From positions 1-7,173 of the forward strand of contig JAIVFU010000233.1 of NCBI GenBank assembly GCA_020829485.1: a stretch of 7,173 nucleotides of DNA, in the 5' to 3' direction. Positions 1-7,173 of this stretch are shown one piece after another. Positions within the stretch are counted from its first letter, which is position 1; the number at the start of each line of letters is the position of its first letter. Source of the DNA: Nostoc sp. CHAB 5834. GTDB taxonomy: Bacteria; Cyanobacteriota; Cyanobacteriia; Cyanobacteriales; Nostocaceae. Position numbers and translations under genes: made by a program. The notes beneath the pieces are model-generated. The model was not told the DNA's origin. It made no database searches and saw nothing but the letters and a program-made list of their open reading frames with translations.

Positions 1-446
1 TGCTGCCAAGTTTTACCGGCGTCCGTCGATTTATACACACCGTCGCCGTAGGAGGTCATGACGCCCCTGGGTGCGTGTTCGCCCATACCGGCGTAAACCA
101 CCGCCGGGTCGGACTCGCATATGCCGATGGCACCCACCGACGATGTTTTCAGTTGGCCGTCGGAAACGTTTTTCCAGGTCTTGCCCGCGTCTTCCGTTTT
201 CCAGATACCGCCCCCCACGGTACCCATGTAATACAATTGCGGGTCGCTGGTGACGCCGGACCCGGCCACCGAGCGGCCACCGCGGAAGGGGCCAATGTTA
301 CGCCATTTTACGGGTTTGAAATAAGGATCGTTGTTGGTTGCCCCCTCAACGGCCGATGTCGATGGCGCTTTTGTTATTTTGGGTTTCTGCGCCAGCAGCG
401 ACGTTGACAGTAGGATGGAGGAAAGAAGAAGTAGGGTGTTTCGCAT
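1..446 (-). CDS. Secreted BNR-repeat / VPS10 sortilin-like beta-propeller protein, N-terminal part
   Basis: This minus-strand reading frame starts at the ATG complementary to 444-446 and stays open for 148 codons to the left edge, so only the N-terminus is present. Residues 1-19 form a signal peptide (a leucine-rich core ending LLA, then Gln20), so the product is exported. Two Asp-box (BNR) motifs of the form S/T-x-D-x-G-K-T-W are visible at about residues 84-91 and 140-147, each preceded by a G-(I/V)-(W/Y)-K strand; the segments FRGGRS (55-59 region) and [10 protein letters not shown] are typical of the large proteins annotated as glycosyl hydrolase or VPS10/sortilin-like propellers in Bacteroidota. 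Those proteins are usually around 1,000 residues, so most of this one lies outside. The true activity of the family is poorly established and hydrolase naming should be treated with caution. It is transcribed away from the block to its right. GC is about 55% in a hand-counted line. Confidence 0.85.
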
Positions 447-731
447 AGAAAGCCAATTGTTGATTTCGTCCCGGCTAAGATAACAGAAATCGGGATTTAG
501 GTGGCCTGAACAAGCGGGCGGGTTGGCGGGTAACTGTCAGCGTGGTGGTAAGCCAATGCCACGTGAGTCAACATGATTTCCCGACAACCCAGCCCTGTTT
601 TTCAACAACCCAACGGCAGTGTGTTTACCTCAGGTACGTATAGGTGGTACGTTTGCCGACCAACCGAATGCATATGCATCAGAACAGAACAACTCTTCTT
701 TATGCCGCAGTAACAGGTAGCCTGTTGCGGT
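447..731. other. Spacer between divergent BNR gene and DUF3500 remnant
   Basis: I see no convincing complete gene here. The interval should hold the promoter of the minus-strand BNR gene, but I could not find a good match to the Bacteroidota -7 element (TAnnTTTG) with a partner -33 element. It contains a 12-base perfect palindrome, ATGCATATGCAT, at 668-679 and a five-base-pair inverted repeat CGTGG/CCACG at 541-545 and 559-563. A frame starting at the ATG at 668 reads like the beginning of a signal peptide (MHMHQNRTTLLYAAVTGSLL) and could be the leftover N-terminus of the decayed gene to its right. Confidence 0.5.
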
Positions 732-1111
732 TTGCTGGTGCCAGATTCTGCATCGAATACGTTTCCGGGTACCAAGTTGGACGTAAAGGTCGGGAGCCTG
801 GGTGCGGCCGCTCAGGCGAAAGTGCTGGCCGCGATGAGACCCTGGCTCGATGATCCGGATGCAACGTCGGCCGCAGCTTTTACATCCGCTTACAGCAACG
901 AATTGGCAAATACCTGCGTAGTCTATTCAGGCAGTGCTTCCAGTACGTCGGGCAACGCGGCTAACTTTTGAAAGCCAATACGGATTACGTGCGGATCGAT
1001 GGCCCCAGCGTTTGGATCGAATTTGTTGTACACACTGGCGTATCCTTTGCAGCGAAGGGGCATTACCAAACCGTTTATCGGGATCGCAATAAAGATTATA
1101 GAGGATTGTAA
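732..1111 (+). pseudogene. DUF3500-family protein remnant (5' truncated, frameshifted)
   Basis: Two adjacent frames join into one recognisable C-terminal DUF3500 segment. The first (732-968) reads through FPGTKLDVKVGSL and a helical stretch LAAMRPWLDD, ending GNAANF at a TGA (969-971). The second frame continues without a gap from TTG at 968 as LKANTDYVRIDGPSVWIEF and on to HYQTVYRDRNKDYRGL, stopping with TAA at 1109-1111. The join is in a run of four T (966-969): one extra T would restore Asn-Phe-Leu-Lys and a single open frame, so one base appears lost. DYVRIDGP-VWIEF followed by a HYHT-like motif and YRD is, from memory, the usual end of DUF3500 proteins, which are exported proteins of roughly 350 residues and unknown function. 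The first two-thirds is missing: a stop (TAA 711-713) lies upstream in frame. The frameshift could be a sequencing error, but the truncation could not. It lies 60 bases before the kinase gene on the same strand. Confidence 0.65.
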
Positions 1112-1171
1112 AGGATACAAAATACTCGTCTATAAAGCCAATTTCATTTACAAACTCCTGCTTTAATATAA

Positions 1172-2212
1172 ATGAAAGCCGCAACCCAAAAAAGAATATA
1201 TACAGCCGGAACAGCCATAATCATTGCTATTTTGTTTAAACTGTTCTTTTTCAGATTGGATCAGTTTTTTGAGTTCGATCTGCTTTACATAGTTTGTGTT
1301 GTGCTGCTTCTATGGGAAGGTAATCTGTTCATTGACCGGTTGCTTAATACGTATTATAGCTGGCTGTTAGCTCCCCGAAAACGGTTGATTTTGCAAGTAC
1401 TTTGCTGCTCTTTATTCACCGCTATTTTTCTTTTTGATGTCATGTACTTGATTCATCAGCTCAAATTTGGAAACGGTGAGGTAGTGAATCAGAAAATGAA
1501 GGAAATATTTGTACCGACTCTGTTCATCGCCTTTACAATTCTAGCCATCGCCATTAGTAATCAGTTTTTTATTGCCTTGAAAAATAGTTTGGTTCAGGTA
1601 GAAAAATATAAAAACGAAAGCATAAACGCTCAATTGAAAAATCTGAAAAATCAGATCAATCCACATTTTTTGTTTAACAATTTAAGCGTATTAACGGCGC
1701 TTGTTTACAAAGATCAGGACAAGGCGACTCACTTTATCAACGAATTGTCGAAAGTGTATCGGTATATTCTTGAAAATAATAATATAGAGTTGATCTCTCT
1801 TCGGGAAGAGTTGAGTTTTCTGCAGCATTATATCTATTTACTGGAAATTCGCTTTGGCTCGTCGATAAAATTTTGTTTCGACATGTCCAGTATAAATGAT
1901 GCGATGTATATATTGCCTATGTGTCTGCAAATGATGGTTGAAAATGCCATACAGCACAACGAGACAATGCAGGATAAATCATTGCAAATCAGTATTCAGT
2001 CCACGACTGATTCGGTTGTCGTCAGGAACTCAATTCAACTCAGGCATGATTTCATTGATAGTTCAAAAACGGGCCTGCGTAATATCCAGTTACGGTACTC
2101 ATTCTTTACCGATAGACCCATCGAGATTGAGGAAACATCTACTTTTTTTTGTGTAACTTTGCCCCTAATTTTTAAAAACAAACCTGCCAAACAAAATGAA
2201 TATGTCGTATAG
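1172..2212 (+). CDS. LytS/YehU-type membrane sensor histidine kinase
   Basis: A 346-residue histidine kinase of the His_kinase (PF06580) class. Four hydrophobic membrane segments are visible at roughly residues 12-27, 36-50, 72-95 and 112-133, followed by a short basic/coiled linker (134-160). The phosphoacceptor motif QINPHFLFN spans 161-169 with His165; the N-box LQMMVENAIQHN lies at 252-263 and a G-box-like TGLRNIQLRY at 300-309, so the catalytic core looks complete. There is no large extracellular or PAS sensor domain, so the signal is probably sensed by the membrane segments or through a partner protein. The likely partner is the LytTR regulator encoded three genes downstream, an unusual separation because such pairs are normally adjacent. 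No Shine-Dalgarno sequence precedes the ATG, as is common in Bacteroidota. The gene is very AT-rich (about 27% GC in line 1621-1680). Its end abuts or overlaps the next gene, indicating co-transcription. Specific signal unknown. Confidence 0.9.
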   Translation: MKAATQKRIYTAGTAIIIAILFKLFFFRLDQFFEFDLLYIVCVVLLLWEGNLFIDRLLNTYYSWLLAPRKRLILQVLCCSLFTAIFLFDVMYLIHQLKFGNGEVVNQKMKEIFVPTLFIAFTILAIAISNQFFIALKNSLVQVEKYKNESINAQLKNLKNQINPHFLFNNLSVLTALVYKDQDKATHFINELSKVYRYILENNNIELISLREELSFLQHYIYLLEIRFGSSIKFCFDMSSINDAMYILPMCLQMMVENAIQHNETMQDKSLQISIQSTTDSVVVRNSIQLRHDFIDSSKTGLRNIQLRYSFFTDRPIEIEETSTFFCVTLPLIFKNKPAKQNEYVV

Positions 2213-2213
2213 T

Positions 2214-2981
2214 ATGAATCAATCCCGAATACTAGTGTCTGCCCTTGTTATGGCCTTCAGTCTGTCGGCTTGCAATAGTAGCGATAGCACCGATGATATA
2301 ACGCCAGTAACAACCGATGTAACGGTGCCGGACGTTTACAAAAAAATCTATGGTGCCACCAGTATTACCAACGACGGTACCTATATTTATATTAAAACTA
2401 AAAATTTACCCGATCACAAAAGTGCTTACTATGCCACGACTAATCCACTTTATGCGGACTATAGCGGCACAACGTTTAGTGGCGTTAAATTTGGGAAAAA
2501 TCCTAGCACAATTGTTGAGCAATCGGCAACTATAAAAATCCCGCTTAACCCCAAAGTAGCATCGACACATGCGGCTACCGCACTGGGCGTCATTGGCATT
2601 GCCTTAAACGGGGTCGCGCTTTTTAATCAATATGCCGGGGGGGGCGCGCCATTAACAAATGAAGTGGGTGGTTTTGACCAATATTGGGGCCACCCACAGG
2701 GATCGGGCGTTTATCATTATCACGTTGAGCCGCTTTATTTAACTACCGTTAAATCGACCAAATCGGGCTTGATGGGTTTTCTTCTGGACGGATTTCCGGT
2801 GTATGGTCCTCAGGAAGAGGATGGTACGGTCGTAACAAACAGTATGCTGGATGATTACCACGGGCATACGCACAAAACGGTCGATTATCCGAACGGAATT
2901 TACCATTATCATTTCACCACCGAAGCCCCCTATATGAATGGCAACGGCTATTACGGAACGCCGGGCACCGTAACGCAATGA
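2214..2981 (+). CDS. YHYH-domain lipoprotein
   Basis: A predicted lipoprotein of 255 residues with the YHYH domain (PF14240), whose biochemical function is not established. From the ATG at 2214, one base after the kinase stop, residues 1-19 are a lipoprotein signal peptide with lipobox L-S-A-C (Cys20); an upstream ATG at 2196 is possible and would add six residues and a 17-base overlap with the kinase. After an Asp/Thr-rich tether (about 22-42) comes the domain: GVALFNQ (133-139), YWGHPQGSGVYHYH (157-170), LLDGFPVYGP (190-199), YHGHTH (215-220) and GIYHYHF (228-234). The two YHYH motifs and eight to ten histidines in the domain suggest metal binding, which is inference. Cys20 is the only cysteine, so the mature domain has no disulfide or thiolate ligand. 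It ends in an ATGA overlap with the next gene. Its placement between a kinase and a SCO protein suggests an envelope sensing or metal-handling role. Confidence 0.88.
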   Translation: MNQSRILVSALVMAFSLSACNSSDSTDDITPVTTDVTVPDVYKKIYGATSITNDGTYIYIKTKNLPDHKSAYYATTNPLYADYSGTTFSGVKFGKNPSTIVEQSATIKIPLNPKVASTHAATALGVIGIALNGVALFNQYAGGGAPLTNEVGGFDQYWGHPQGSGVYHYHVEPLYLTTVKSTKSGLMGFLLDGFPVYGPQEEDGTVVTNSMLDDYHGHTHKTVDYPNGIYHYHFTTEAPYMNGNGYYGTPGTVTQ

Positions 2982-3574
2982 TAAACAGAGCGGCTTTACT
3001 TACCGTCGTCCTTCTGGCTTTTTCCTGCACTGGAAAAAAGCCAGAAGGGCAATTTAATTTAGTGCAGAACGTACCGGATACGTATCATCTTAAATCGTCA
3101 CCCGTTGTTTCGTTTACAAATGACATTGTCCACGTTAATAGCAAACCCTACACCGGTTTTATGTATGAGTTAAGTCCGGCCGGCGACACGCTCTTGATTG
3201 AAGGGTATATAAACGGCTTATTGACGGGGTACTGCAAAAAAAACTATCCCAGCGGGCAACGTATGGAAGAACGCTGGTATAAAAGCGGTCGGAAAAATGG
3301 TTTGCAGCTTGCTTATTGGCCGAATGGAAAAAAACGTTTTGAATTCGTGGCCAAAGACGATGCCTACGAAGGCGAACTGAAAGAGTGGACTATCAATGGT
3401 CATTTGTTTCATCTGGCCCATTACAAAAATGGTCAGGAGGAAGGTATTCAAAAATTATGGTATGATAATGGTAAAATCAGAGCCAATTATGTTATTGTTC
3501 AAGGTAAACGGTATGGCTTGCTGGGCACTAAAAACTGCAAAAATGTATCGGATAGTATTTTTGCTGTTCGGTAG
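2978..3574 (+). CDS. MORN-repeat (YwqK-like) lipoprotein
   Basis: A 198-residue predicted lipoprotein: residues 1-16 form a signal peptide with the lipobox A-F-S-C (Cys17). From about residue 57 to 183 it carries degenerate MORN_2 (PF07661) repeats, seen as recurring Tyr/Trp-x-x-G/N-G-x-x-x-G units: YINGLLTGYCKKNYPSG (77-93), WYKSGRKNGLQLAYWPNGKK (100-119), YKNGQEEGIQKLWYDNGKI (149-167) and GKRYGLLGTKN (176-186). Automated annotation usually calls this family YwqK antitoxin, but nothing here suggests a toxin partner; in Bacteroidota such proteins are widespread exported beta-repeat proteins of unknown function. The start is shared with the stop of the YHYH gene (ATGA at 2978-2981), so translation is probably coupled. 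Its last 32 bases overlap the SCO gene in another frame. I infer a structural or partner role within the same envelope unit; the exact function cannot be read from the sequence. Confidence 0.82.
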   Translation: MINRAALLTVVLLAFSCTGKKPEGQFNLVQNVPDTYHLKSSPVVSFTNDIVHVNSKPYTGFMYELSPAGDTLLIEGYINGLLTGYCKKNYPSGQRMEERWYKSGRKNGLQLAYWPNGKKRFEFVAKDDAYEGELKEWTINGHLFHLAHYKNGQEEGIQKLWYDNGKIRANYVIVQGKRYGLLGTKNCKNVSDSIFAVR

Positions 3575-4190
3575 CATTATGCTCTTGGGCTGTTCGTTAA
3601 AATCTGCCGAAATTAACAACCTGCCTTATTATAATGAGCCTGATTTTACGCCTATTTTCATTAGCGATATATCGAGCGTTTCGGGTAAAATTAGCCATAC
3701 GATCAGCGATTTTTCGTTATTGAATCAGGACAGTGTTCGTATCGATCAATCCATTATTTCCGGCAAAATTCATATCGCTAATTTCATCTTTACCTCATGC
3801 GGCATGATTTGCCCTACGATGACGCAGCATATGAAACGGATTAGTGATAGTACGAAACAAAACCCCGATGTAGTTATTCTATCGTACTCCGTAACGCCCT
3901 GGATCGATCAGCCTCATGTATTGAACAGGTATAAACATAAAAATGGTATTGATAATAACAACTGGCACTTCCTGACAGGCCCGAAAAGCGTGATTTATAA
4001 TTTGGCCCGGAAGTCCTACTTTGCCGAAGAAGATATTGGTTTCAGTAAAGACAGTACAGAGTTTTTGCATACCGAACATTGTGTACTGATCGATAAAACG
4101 AAACGAATACGGGGTATATATAACGGAACTTTAGCCGTAGATATGAAAAACTTACTGGACGATATCCGAATGCTGACAGCCGAGCCTTGA
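3543..4190 (+). CDS. SCO1/SenC-family copper chaperone-like lipoprotein
   Basis: A 215-residue SCO-family (SCO1/SenC, PF02630) thioredoxin-fold protein. I chose the ATG at 3543, inside the end of the MORN gene, because it gives a clean lipoprotein signal peptide: MYRIVFLLFG, then lipobox L-L-G-C with Cys17. The frame is open further upstream to 3396, but that part is an out-of-frame reading of the MORN gene. The copper site is intact: FIFTSCGMICP at 81-91 supplies Cys86 and Cys90 in the Cys-x3-Cys-Pro spacing of SCO proteins, and the third ligand is probably His176 in FLHTEHCVLID (174-184). SVTPWID (116-122) and WHFLTG (141-146) are further family blocks. SCO proteins deliver copper to cytochrome oxidase CuA or act as envelope thiol reductases. 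No oxidase genes are seen here, so a dedicated role with the YHYH protein, such as metal loading or redox repair, is plausible but inferred. It is followed after 18 bases by the response regulator. Confidence 0.9.
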   Translation: MYRIVFLLFGSIMLLGCSLKSAEINNLPYYNEPDFTPIFISDISSVSGKISHTISDFSLLNQDSVRIDQSIISGKIHIANFIFTSCGMICPTMTQHMKRISDSTKQNPDVVILSYSVTPWIDQPHVLNRYKHKNGIDNNNWHFLTGPKSVIYNLARKSYFAEEDIGFSKDSTEFLHTEHCVLIDKTKRIRGIYNGTLAVDMKNLLDDIRMLTAEP

Positions 4191-4208
4191 TAATCTATTT
4201 TATACGTA

Positions 4209-4964
4209 ATGAACGTTGTTATCGTAGAGGACGAAAAATTATCGTCGGAACATCTTGCTTTTTTACTAGCTAAAATTGATAAGGAAATACAGGTTGTTTC
4301 CTGCTTCGATTCGGTAAAACAAACGGTTGCCGCCTTCAAGGATGGTATGACAGTCGATTTGCTGTTTATGGATATTCATCTGGCCGATGGCAATAGCTTC
4401 GATATATTTACGAAAATAAAACTCGACACACCCCTTGTTTTTACTACCGCTTATGATAAATACGCCATTCAGGCATTCAAACAAAATAGTATCGATTATT
4501 TACTGAAGCCGGTTACGCTTGTTGATTTACAGGTTGCCCTTGATAAATATAGAAAGCACCATCAGAAAGTTGATACAAAACTAATTGAGTCGATTGCCGG
4601 GGTGTATCAGCGCATAAACCTGCAATACAAGACGCGGTTTTTGGTGAAAATGGGGCAGGTGATCGACACGGTTGATACCAACGATATTCACCATTTTGAA
4701 ACCGAAGAAAGCCTGTCATTTCTGGTCACCACCAAAGGCCACCGTTTCCAGATCGATTATACCCTTGATCAGTTAGAAACCATGCTGGCTCCCAGCGATT
4801 TCTTCCGAATCAACCGGAAGATCATTATCCGGTTTCAATCCATTGACAAAGCAATGGCCTATTTCAACGGGCGTTTAGCCATAACAGCCAAACGGCTGGC
4901 AGGTGACGCAACGATTGTCAGCCGTGAGCGGGTCGCCCCGTTCAAAGCCTGGCTGGACCACTGA
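4209..4964 (+). CDS. LytTR-family DNA-binding response regulator
   Basis: A 251-residue response regulator with an N-terminal receiver domain (about 1-115) and a C-terminal LytTR DNA-binding domain (about 143-250, PF04397). The receiver has all key residues: acidic Glu7/Asp8 in VEDE, phosphoacceptor Asp55 in LLFMDIHL, Thr80 in FTTAYD and Lys100-Pro101 in YLLKPV. LytTR features include FFRINRKIII (198-207) and the terminal VSRERVAPFKAWL (237-249). It is the expected partner of the LytS-type kinase at the head of the block, so the pair brackets the three lipoprotein genes; autoregulation of the whole block is likely but not shown. LytTR proteins usually bind paired short direct repeats; I did not recognise a convincing pair upstream of the kinase gene. 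Base composition changes inside the gene: the first half is AT-rich like the upstream genes, the second half closer to the flanking genome (about 47% GC in line 4741-4800). Confidence 0.93.
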   Translation: MNVVIVEDEKLSSEHLAFLLAKIDKEIQVVSCFDSVKQTVAAFKDGMTVDLLFMDIHLADGNSFDIFTKIKLDTPLVFTTAYDKYAIQAFKQNSIDYLLKPVTLVDLQVALDKYRKHHQKVDTKLIESIAGVYQRINLQYKTRFLVKMGQVIDTVDTNDIHHFETEESLSFLVTTKGHRFQIDYTLDQLETMLAPSDFFRINRKIIIRFQSIDKAMAYFNGRLAITAKRLAGDATIVSRERVAPFKAWLDH

Positions 4965-5479
4965 GTTGGATACCACTTTTCCGGAATTTGCCGTAGGCAA
5001 GATAACCTACTGACGCTGTCTCCTGCGTTGGCGGTCTGCCGTGCCGATTTTACTGCCAAATGTTCGCTACTAATGTACCCGGTACGCGCCCCCCAAAAAC
5101 AGTTATTAACGCTCATAACTGCAGTTCTTACCTGGAGGATAGCTGCATCTGGACAAGTACTACCAGCGACATAAGTATAATTAACTAATTTCTAATTTTT
5201 ATTTAATGTATTTTTAATGACGACTTTTGCATAAGGCATTCGAAAGCGGCTTTCTGAGTAGCCTTCATGTAAGGAGGTTATCGGTTTGCCAGCATTGATG
5301 CTACACCACAACAGGCCAAATTGGCACAATAAGTATTCTTACCGGGTACTCATCCAGATGCAAGCATGACCATGCCAAATTTTTTGGGTCATGGTCAAGG
5401 CAGTTGAAGGGTTTCTTAACGCATTGATTACCAATTTCCTAAACCAGAAAATTATCTTCTCAAGTTGCCAAACGAACCG
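4965..5479. other. Long intergenic region upstream of the SulP gene
   Basis: About 515 bases without a convincing gene. The left part (4965-5165) shows no clear terminator after the regulator gene; the small inverted repeat TTGCC/GGCAA at 4988-5000 lacks a T tract. An AT-rich patch at about 5176-5222 is the most promoter-like stretch, followed by GACTTTTG (5223-5229 area), one mismatch from the Bacteroidota -7 consensus, but without a clear -33 partner. The right part (5233-5397) has a series of inverted repeats listed separately. Reverse-strand open frames across 4859-5116 look like chance readings. Confidence 0.5.
5233..5397 (+). promoter_or_regulatory. Possible structured 5' leader of the SulP gene
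   Basis: Four inverted repeats lie close together ahead of the permease: GAAAGC-G-GCTTTC (5242-5254), enclosed by AAGGC/GCCTT (5233-5237 and 5261-5265); AGCAT-TG-ATGCT (5291-5302); GCCAA-A-TTGGC (5315-5325); and a hairpin with TGACCATG/CATGGTCA arms (5367-5374 and 5390-5397) whose inner CCAAA/TTTGG pairs (5375-5379, 5383-5387) extend the stem past a two-base bulge. An AAGGAGGT sequence (5271-5278), a perfect Shine-Dalgarno match that is unusual in this phylum, precedes a 27-codon frame (TTG at 5286, TGA at 5367-5369) that ends exactly where the last hairpin begins. This could be a regulatory leader, a small RNA, or chance; I do not recognise a known riboswitch. Confidence 0.25.
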
Positions 5480-6892
5480 ATGCCAATGAATACTGCTCAG
5501 AATACCTCTTCAGTAGGTCAACGTTTAAAGCTGTTTTTTACGCTGTTCGACAGCCGGTGGGAAGACCTTGAAAAACATAATTGGAAAATAACGGTCTATC
5601 GTGATTTCAGCGCGGGCCTGATTGTGGCCATGACCGCCATTCCGATGGCGATGGGCTTTGCGATGGCGATGGGCCTGCGACCTGAACAAGGCATCATTGC
5701 GGGGGCGTTGGCGTGTATCATTGGCCGAACATTTGGCGGATCGAAATACCAGGTCTACGGCCCAACGGCGGCTTTCATTCCCCTGATTGCTGCGCTGATT
5801 ACAAAATACGGTGTGGCGTCGGGCGGCACGGCGGAGCAGGCACACGGCTTTCTGATTTTCGTTTCGATCATCGCCGGTATTCTGTTGATGATCATGGGCT
5901 TGTCGGGTTTTGGGAAATACGCCAAACTGGTGCCCAACTCCATCATTGTGGGCTTCACTATCGGCATCGCCTTCGCCATTGCGTTCACGAATCTGGAAGA
6001 TATTCTGGGGATCGAGAGCTTCCGGGATATTCTCGGTCAGGACGAAGATATTCAGGGCGGGCTTATTCATAACCTGGGTGCCGCCTTTGGTAATCTGGAT
6101 AAAATCAACGTCTGGTCGCTGCTGATCGGGTTGCTGACGTTTGTGATTACGAAGTACGTGCTGAAAATATCCATTTTCATTCCGGCTCCACTGATCTCGA
6201 TTGCCGTTTCTACACTACTGGTTGCCACGGTGTTGGCCGATAAAAATATCCTGCTCGTCAAAGATATTTACGGCAGTATTCCCAATAATTTCTTTGTCTT
6301 CACCAGCCCGCAGTTACCGGCCATGACGGCTGGCGTGTTTCTCGATATTCTTTACTTTGTTTTTGCCATCGTCTTTGTTTCTGGGGTCGAAAGTGTCCTG
6401 TGTTCATCGATGGCCGACCGGCTGGCCAACAACAAACGCACACCCTTTAACCCCGACAAAGAATTCTGGGGGCAGGGTCTGGTACAGATCATTACGCCCA
6501 TGGTAAATGGTTTTCCGTGCACCGGGGCCCTGGCCCGTACGGCAACCAGCATTAAAGCCGGTGCCGTGACGCCACTGGCTGGCTATTTCAAGGGCGTTCT
6601 GAAACTGGTCATGGCCTATTATCTGGCTCCCTATCTGGAACTGATTCCTATGGCGTGCATCGGCGGTATCCTGATCTGGGTCGCTACGAACATGATAAAA
6701 CCGTCGGAAATTCGGGAGATAAAATCGTTGGGCAAATTTGAGTTTGCGATTATGATTTACACCGCCGTTATGGTGCCCATGACTGATTTTCTGACCGGTG
6801 TGCTGTCGGCGCTGATCATCTATTTTGTGGTTCGGAAGTTCTTTATCAAACAGGACACGACAACGCGTAAAGAAACGCTTGTCGATGCCTGA
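5480..6892 (+). CDS. SulP-family (SLC26-like) inorganic anion permease lacking a STAS domain
   Basis: A polytopic membrane protein of 470 residues from the ATG at 5480; a TTG at 5465 and an ATG at 5486 are possible alternatives, and the ATG is preferred over TTG without a ribosome site to decide. It belongs to the sulfate permease family (PF00916), which moves sulfate, bicarbonate or other anions across the inner membrane. The N-terminal DFSAGLIVAMTAIPMAMGFA (42-61) and GGSKYQVYGPTAAFIPL (86-102) match the family signature around the anion site, and the C-terminal half carries ESVLCSSMADR (304-314) and the GFPCTGALARTATSIKAG block (344-361). About ten or more hydrophobic segments are visible. 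The protein stops just after the last one with a short basic tail, so the cytoplasmic STAS domain normal in this family is absent. Substrate cannot be told; bicarbonate or sulfate are both possible. It has its own long upstream region and a terminator after it, so it is probably a single-gene unit. Confidence 0.9.
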   Translation: MPMNTAQNTSSVGQRLKLFFTLFDSRWEDLEKHNWKITVYRDFSAGLIVAMTAIPMAMGFAMAMGLRPEQGIIAGALACIIGRTFGGSKYQVYGPTAAFIPLIAALITKYGVASGGTAEQAHGFLIFVSIIAGILLMIMGLSGFGKYAKLVPNSIIVGFTIGIAFAIAFTNLEDILGIESFRDILGQDEDIQGGLIHNLGAAFGNLDKINVWSLLIGLLTFVITKYVLKISIFIPAPLISIAVSTLLVATVLADKNILLVKDIYGSIPNNFFVFTSPQLPAMTAGVFLDILYFVFAIVFVSGVESVLCSSMADRLANNKRTPFNPDKEFWGQGLVQIITPMVNGFPCTGALARTATSIKAGAVTPLAGYFKGVLKLVMAYYLAPYLELIPMACIGGILIWVATNMIKPSEIREIKSLGKFEFAIMIYTAVMVPMTDFLTGVLSALIIYFVVRKFFIKQDTTTRKETLVDA

Positions 6893-6967
6893 ATTAAGGC
6901 GTTTTTGGCCAGATTTCATAGAGTAGCTGTGTAAGTAATGCACTGATAGTTAGATGATTAAAAAGAA

Positions 6968-7016
6968 AAATTGCCCTGATGAACCGAGTGTTTCACTTGT
7001 TTCATCAGGGCAATTT
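6968..7016 (+). terminator. Strong intrinsic terminator after SulP gene, possibly bidirectional
   Basis: A perfect 16-base-pair inverted repeat: AAATTGCCCTGATGAA at 6968-6983 and TTCATCAGGGCAATTT at 7001-7016, with a 17-base loop that itself contains AGTG-TTT-CACT (6987-6997). The right arm runs into a T-rich stretch (TTTCTTTTG), and the left arm is preceded by an A-rich stretch that would give a T tract on the other strand. It begins 75 bases after the permease stop and 85 bases before the next ATG. Confidence 0.85.
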
Positions 7017-7100
7017 CTTTTGTGCCGTAGGAACAGGCGTTGGTATATCGTCTAATGGGATAGCCTGTAGAAATAAGGTACTCACCTTTTAGAACAAGAT

Positions 7101-7173
7101 ATGAACAGCGTAAAATCGAGAATGGCGGCATTGGCCCTGGCTGGTGTCATGGCCTGGAGTGTAACCGGTTGCA
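7101..7173 (+). CDS. Lipoprotein, N-terminal signal peptide only
   Basis: The frame from the ATG at 7101 is open to the right edge (24 complete codons) and encodes a lipoprotein signal peptide: a basic start MNSVKSR, a hydrophobic core MAALALAGVMAW and a lipobox V-T-G-C with the acceptor Cys24 as the last full codon. The basic residues favour this ATG over the internal one at 7122. It follows the permease terminator, so it should start a new transcript; no confident promoter element was seen in 7022-7100, although a six-base inverted repeat ACAGGC/GCCTGT (7033-7038 and 7063-7068) lies there. The mature protein is outside the window, so its function cannot be stated. Confidence 0.7.
   Translation, partial: MNSVKSRMAALALAGVMAWSVTGC

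Follow-up and report, generated by a model that had tools for sequence, protein, structure and literature searches.

The 7,173 nt of Nostoc sp. CHAB 5834 analysed here (contig JAIVFU010000233.1, positions 1 to 7,173 of the forward strand; hereafter the window) contain a putative operon encoding a LytS-like sensor kinase, three lipoproteins of the YHYH, MORN and SCO families and a LytTR response regulator. Judged from its homologs, the DNA seemingly resembles that of Bacteroidota. The best overall explanation, in our view, is that the three lipoproteins constitute a cassette handling a metal, probably copper, which in the window is regulated by its own LytS/LytTR pair. We assign this reading a probability of roughly 55%. 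YHYH-MORN-SCO, an envelope cassette of three lipoproteins in Bacteroidota, is the core of the system. The sequences show the conservation of this cassette, a dedicated clade of SCO proteins with an intact motif and a conserved repeat with an accompanying promoter element.

Between 1172 and 4964 five closely packed genes are located on the + strand. The LytS-like membrane sensor kinase (1172-2212, 346 amino acids; PF06580, E 4.5e-24) comes first and carries His165 and the N-box Asn258. It is followed by the YHYH lipoprotein (2196-2981, 261 amino acids; PF14240, E 5.1e-23, 82.5 bits vs a cut-off of 25), the MORN_2 lipoprotein with the C-terminal motif GLLGTKNC (2978-3574, 198 amino acids; PF07661, E 1.3e-07) and the SCO lipoprotein with a CGMIC motif and H176 (3543-4190, 215 amino acids; PF02630, E 6e-20, 72 bits vs a cut-off of 22.8). 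The start of the latter was taken as the ATG at 3543; its open frame begins already at 3396. The LytTR response regulator (4209-4964, 251 amino acids; PF00072 and PF04397) with Asp55 and Lys100 is the last gene. Kinase and YHYH genes overlap by 17 nt, YHYH and MORN_2 by 4 nt and MORN_2 and SCO by 32 nt, and SCO is separated from the regulator by an 18 nt gap. Gene calls and Pfam matches hence confirm a preliminary description of the window, which had listed five same-strand genes with overlaps or an 18 nt gap, the kinase being first and the regulator last. Its further statements, three lipoboxes and an intact Cys-x3-Cys plus His site in SCO, are likewise borne out by the alignments given below.

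The conservation of the cassette was evaluated in the best 80 of 268 loci, obtained with a profile of 18 YHYH proteins from one-per-species genomes, plus the window (81 loci; L and G numbers denote loci and genomes in our dataset). MORN is found in 78 of them, SCO in 76 and the full trio in 76. In all five loci without the full trio (L017, L018, L020, L048 and L079) a contig edge falls inside the cassette. Environmental strains carrying the cassette include Runella sp. (L001), Flavobacterium succinicans (L014) and Spirosoma panaciterrae (L055). Because of the way it was built, the set of 81 holds the loci nearest to the window; 296 evenly drawn Bacteroidota genomes (the even draw) were therefore added as a less biased sample. 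The YHYH protein search matches 32 of these genomes and 30 loci were retrieved. All 16 loci with a YHYH protein of ≤ 300 amino acids have MORN and 15 have an adjoining SCO, with YHYH identities down to 33-36%; L090, counted among these 16, is the same place as L055. At the 14 loci with longer YHYH proteins (337-632 amino acids) neither MORN nor SCO was found within the 2.3-3.7 kb covered. Wherever all three genes are present (90/90 loci) they lie on a single strand in the order YHYH, MORN, SCO. By our own arithmetic, a SCO gene within 2 kb would be expected by chance in well under 1% of cases, as genomes have two to seven SCO matches each. The conserved trio arrangement far exceeds chance.

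Distances between family members are correlated for all three pairs, with coefficients of 0.75 (YHYH-MORN), 0.58 (YHYH-SCO) and 0.80 (MORN-SCO), compared to largest values of 0.25, 0.17 and 0.13 among 200 permutations, although common descent by itself would yield such correlations too. The full trio is also present on a Bacteroidota plasmid (Persicobacter). Support for the three-lipoprotein cassette is very good at the sequence level.

The SCO proteins of the trio are a separate paralogue. A tree was built from 65 rows, of which 60 are distinct, as five genes were entered twice; all 41 trio rows are located in one branch of 43 rows with a support of 98/98. The two remaining rows are L129, which has a long branch, and L132, the relocated SCO of the genome of L103. 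At least two SCO matches are present in each of the 19 trio genomes searched, and the trio members apparently form a nearly exclusive clade separate from the other SCOs of the same genomes. The sister branch holds five SCOs, four of which (L123, L138, L139 and L140) adjoin FeoB-like genes by eye; FeoB was confirmed by scan in L123 and L138. This suggests a second dedicated SCO type tied to iron transport.

The SCO family is known above all for the assembly of the CuA site of cytochrome c oxidase. In keeping with this role and with its intact motif, the window SCO could be an ordinary CuA assembly factor, with YHYH and MORN as mere passengers. Such a reading is hardly credible to us. All 19 genomes searched have at least two SCO matches, the lone SCO found in an oxidase setting (L120, between DUF420 and COX4_pro genes) is placed outside the trio branch, and cytochrome c oxidase genes are absent among the seven window proteins scanned.

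The three families share an aligned lipobox cysteine, namely C26 of YHYH (93/93 sequences), C17 of MORN (92/93) and C17 of SCO (90/90). Within YHYH, seven histidines (H74, H166, H174, H176, H224, H237 and H239) and three aspartates (D161, D198 and D219) are invariant over 93 sequences. C86, C90 and H176 of SCO are present in 90 of 90 trio SCOs, such that the CxxxC motif and the distal histidine are intact. Solved relatives of the window SCO are 1xzo, to which it was aligned, 1on4 and 4hde. C187 of MORN, within GLLGTKNC, is conserved in 91 of 93 sequences. The predicted model of MORN is confident (predicted local distance difference test score, pLDDT, 90) and consists of beta strands along the whole chain; the one of YHYH is of moderate quality (pLDDT 73).

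The invariant His/Asp set of YHYH would also fit a hydrolase that depends on zinc and attacks a polymer of the envelope or the extracellular space, in which case SCO would serve the cassette as thiol-disulfide reductase and not as copper donor. The accessible part of a jumbo-phage survey predicts a His/Asp zinc site and a metal-dependent hydrolase role for the YHYH domains of phage tails (PMC7824862). Moreover, polysaccharide deacetylase genes are neighbours at several loci and ZnuA is located beside one trio. What a hydrolase leaves unexplained is the dedicated SCO clade with its invariant, copper-type CxxxC and histidine, as well as the MbnP and MbnH neighbours of other YHYH genes described below. 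We thus regard a zinc hydrolase as unlikely. The dedicated SCO clade fits the proposal of the preliminary description that YHYH may be a client or ligand of SCO, and a role as client seems plausible.

The LytS/LytTR pair appears to be an optional regulator of the cassette. Kinase and regulator are each found in 14 of 81 loci. In the 13 loci other than the window both genes are adjacent and located downstream of SCO, sometimes after intervening genes, with a 4 nt overlap in 12 cases and a 2 nt gap in L062. A kinase in front combined with a regulator at the end is restricted to the window among the 14 pair-carrying loci. The bracketing of the lipoprotein genes, which the preliminary description had taken as a feature of the system, is hence particular to the window. 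Its proposed neighbourhood search for the order kinase-YHYH-MORN-SCO-regulator recovers the inner trio in 76 of the 81 loci and the complete order in the window only.

The window kinase shares 42-54% identity with its 13 counterparts from the other YHYH loci, the regulator 50-68% with its own 13, and H165 and N258 as well as D55 and K100 are invariant in all 14. Searching ten genomes with the window kinase yielded the YHYH-locus kinases of G002, G003 and G004 together with one in G156 at 352-376 bits (52-54% identity), while the next paralogue reached 178 bits. The window kinase is thus an ortholog of the YHYH-locus kinases. The kinase of G156 belongs to another operon, which also encodes a receptor and a second YHYH protein (L164). 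Among 291 genomes of one order, with up to 7 candidates scored per genome, two kinase orthologs (358-361 bits) were found beside the trio; four weaker matches (207-216 bits) are not beside a trio within the 4 kb covered. A polysaccharide deacetylase gene adjoins LytS/LytTR in several loci carrying the LytTR box described below (e.g. L003, 16596-17522; L164, 9849-10781).

In place of LytS/LytTR, 13 further loci of the 81 carry, close to the trio, a gene for an extracytoplasmic function (ECF) sigma factor along with a small CpxP-like gene. For L055 the sigma gene matches sigma-70 and the CpxP-like gene matches Metal_resist; most other scanned members of the CpxP-like cluster stay under the Pfam cut-offs. 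The same arrangement occurs in 3 of 17 even-draw regions with the trio or a YHYH-MORN pair (L153, L158 and L163; sigma confirmed in L153 and L163). A more distant LytS/LytTR pair is located nearby in another three (L157, L160 and L161; 70-99 bits). As some genomes are rich in LytS (39-47 matches in G001, G002 and G196), these distant pairs may be due to chance. On the whole, the regulators of the cassette appear exchangeable, being either LytS/LytTR or an ECF sigma factor.

Upstream of the window operon a putative LytTR-type operator is found on the + strand at 584-612. It consists of two ACAACCCA half-sites (584-591 and 605-612) with a spacing of 21 bp and exactly follows ACAAYYCA-N13-ACAAYYCA. 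Exactly 35 nt past this operator lies a putative -7 promoter element, TACGTTTG (TAnnTTTG; 648-655, + strand). According to the accessible parts of the respective publications, LytTR proteins bind paired 9 bp repeats 10-13 bp apart (PMC11347149, PMC2766830), and TAnnTTTG represents the -7 box of Flavobacterium sigma-A (PMC9723704).

The box was searched in 99 loci (1,545,658 bases) with spacings of 14 to 30. Allowing ≤ 1 mismatch, the direct repeat has 19 matches at a spacing of 21, compared to 0-4 at every other spacing. All 11 exact matches precede operons of the YHYH-MORN-SCO system. Seven of them lie in front of trio YHYH genes (L003, L006, L010, L011, L014, L015 and L025), two in front of a receptor gene (L014 and L164) and one ahead of a lipoprotein gene that is itself followed by YHYH (L013); the remaining one is the window box at 584. 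The 13 ECF loci have no exact box and a single box with one mismatch (L018). TAnnTTTG follows exactly 35 nt past the box in 10 of 16 boxes examined, including the window; this count leaves out the boxes of L018 and of the minus strand of L005. Other distances are found in L005 (25 and 34) and L013 (47), and the element is missing downstream of the boxes in L001, L004, L010 and L032 as well as in L164, which was viewed separately. Random stretches of 60 nt contain TAnnTTTG in 3.7% of cases. Since box and element of the window share the layout seen upstream of sister operons, self-regulation of the operon through its own LytTR box seems well supported at the sequence level. In this respect the preliminary description, which had suggested a self-regulated envelope unit for a metal, fared well: orthologous kinases and regulators and the conserved box with its promoter element favour self-regulation, the lipoprotein genes do occur together, and the neighbourhoods (MbnP, di-haem peroxidase, HupE/UreJ, ZnuA and FeoB) are in line with the metal theme. 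Its interpretation is thus supported in part; the bracketing as a trait of the system is not borne out.

That the envelope unit handles a metal is a reasonable assumption. Copper is favoured with moderate confidence, based on SCO and on the MbnP and MbnH genes beside other YHYH genes. L027 (4334-7572) has three successive genes 2.3 kb upstream of its trio, which encode MbnP (PF20243), a di-haem peroxidase resembling MbnH and a YHYH protein that bears a type IX sorting tail. MbnP is located ≤ 3 kb from a YHYH gene in G018, G119, G210, G218 and G004, including four genomes of the even draw, and an MbnH-like gene adjoins YHYH in L117. Five related loci have an AhpC/TSA gene ahead of the trio (confirmed for the member in L067). 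Moreover, a secreted domain was found whose mature form likely starts with histidine (AHQPDLS and similar; the cleavage is our own reading). It occurs alone as well as fused to YHYH (L016, 5002-6321; L018, 7190-8518; L026), to a TonB-dependent receptor (L003, 9880-12867; L011) and to HupE (HupE/UreJ in L014, 13862-14962). The fusions of one domain to HupE, receptor and YHYH tie these modules together. One may speculate that the N-terminal histidine serves as copper ligand.

Based on these observations the metal cassette could work as follows. YHYH would bind a metal, probably copper, via its invariant histidines. The dedicated SCO would load this site or keep a partner thiol reduced, and the beta-solenoid of MORN with its conserved C-terminal cysteine might be a scaffold or relay between both. 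In the window operon the LytS kinase would sense a signal in the envelope and the LytTR regulator would act on the direct repeat at 584-612. The promoter at ~650 would thereby drive the whole operon, kinase and regulator included. We infer a single transcript, DNA binding by the regulator, activation, which metal is bound and in which direction metal or thiols are passed on.

Several observations weigh against this reading. One trio locus (L103) lacks a local SCO, and none is present within the surrounding 19 kb (L162); the genome has a SCO elsewhere (L132), which groups inside the trio branch. SCO and MORN are absent at the four alphaproteobacterial plasmid YHYH loci examined (15 plasmid records matched), hence their link to YHYH is no rule across the whole YHYH family. 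In Loktanella (L195, 4412-7834) two YHYH genes enclose two PEBP/YbhB-type genes, a partnership unlike the trio. The fold search matched the YHYH model to no solved structure. A surface location is unsupported for the window YHYH, as it has a single acidic residue at +2 to +6 after the lipobox cysteine; the surface export signal of Bacteroidota lipoproteins is K-(D/E)2 or similar after the cysteine, as given in the available part of the source (PMC5080379). At least two acidic residues at these positions are found in 34/89 YHYH, 10/86 MORN and 12/84 SCO proteins. The exact box is not rare genome-wide, with 22 matches in 24 genomes vs 13 for a reversed control. MbnP is present in 21 of 32 YHYH-positive vs 57 of 264 YHYH-negative genomes of the even draw, an association in favour of copper that may partly reflect phylogeny, and MbnP lies near long YHYH proteins, outside the trio itself. 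The OprC copper motif (CxxxM and HxM according to the accessible text of PMC11213822) occurs in none of seven neighbouring TonB-dependent receptors; in the window no receptor gene was recognised. Finally, some neighbours of the trio point to nickel, zinc or iron in addition to copper. HupE/UreJ_2 belongs to the LytS operon in both L003 and L014, the trio of L165 (768-7245) is divergent from ZnuA and an ABC-3 permease, and five related loci (L067, L072, L073, L077 and L080; confirmed in L080) carry a FeoB-like gene on the opposite strand, at a distance of 0.8-1.8 kb downstream of the trio. The ABC-3 permease frame of L165 additionally carries the C-terminal domain of an iron-dependent repressor.

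Together with the FeoB genes beside the sister-branch SCOs, these neighbours might indicate uptake of nickel, cobalt, zinc or iron, and not of copper, by the cassette along with the receptor, HupE-type permease and N-terminal-His proteins linked to it. SCO proteins studied so far, however, are copper proteins, and MbnP or MbnH is found near YHYH genes in five genomes. We consider uptake of another metal improbable, somewhat more so than the zinc hydrolase. A wider version of the copper reading is tentative: YHYH could be a new class of envelope cuproproteins matured by its own SCO via a MORN cysteine relay. Combined with further modules (second YHYH, TonB-dependent receptor, HupE type and N-terminal His), part of which share the LytTR box, it might form an undescribed Bacteroidota system for copper capture and sensing with interchangeable controllers (LytS/LytTR or ECF sigma factor with CpxP-like protein).

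The proteins of the window show similarities to known systems. Its SCO resembles SCO1/SenC (B. subtilis Sco/YpmQ, 1xzo and 1on4) in the family match, in CxxxC with a distal histidine and in its thioredoxin-like solved relatives. It differs by the clade of its own, by its fixed partners YHYH and MORN and by the lack of oxidase genes beside it in the window. YHYH shares the family match and the conserved His/Asp set with PF14240 proteins of phage tails and other bacteria but is a ~260 amino acid lipoprotein whose gene shares an operon with those of SCO and MORN. Proteobacterial copper-regulated TonB-transporter operons of the cruR-bfrG type can include genes for Sco, MbnPH-like and AhpC/TSA proteins besides that of a receptor, as stated in the accessible part of the report (PMC9426467), which resembles trio loci with a nearby receptor, MbnP (L027) or AhpC/TSA (L067). 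According to the same part, a copper-responsive upstream open reading frame controls these operons, whereas trio loci have LytS/LytTR or an ECF sigma factor; it makes no mention of YHYH or MORN. With the LytS/LytTR systems (AlgR, AgrA and LytR) the window shares the phosphoacceptor His and Asp, the LytTR domain and direct repeats two helical turns apart. In contrast, the ACAAYYCA repeat is common to the operons described here, and the pair of the window is split by lipoprotein genes.

The operon is flanked by a BNR-like gene (3-446, - strand), whose Pfam matches are below the cut-offs, and by the gene of a SulP permease (5480-6892). An inverted repeat 3' of the latter (6968-7016, AAATTGCCCTGATGAA ... 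TTCATCAGGGCAATTT), strong by eye, probably represents a terminator. Between LytTR box and kinase a truncated and frameshifted DUF3500 remnant is located on the + strand (741-1108; 3' third in two frames). Searched separately, its piece 965-1108 matches positions 255-295 of 297 in PF12006 (E 1.5e-9), and the piece 741-968 weakly matches 200-253 (E 0.036, under the cut-off). The position of this remnant between promoter and kinase suggests that the gene order of the window arose through rearrangement.

In line with the preliminary description, which knew of no system of such composition, our literature searches revealed no paper on the YHYH-MORN-SCO combination and none pairing YHYH with 'SCO family protein', subscription journals being mostly outside the search. 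They also returned no paper with a tested YHYH function, although such proteins are common, the one of the window having 3868 homologs at E ≤ 0.001. The strict partnership with a dedicated SCO and the named regulator and operator make the function of YHYH accessible to short experiments. The unit is apparently undescribed and gives a protein family of unassigned function a testable role. If our reading is true, the clients of SCO proteins would extend past respiratory oxidases, and Bacteroidota would gain a metal-responsive LytTR system.

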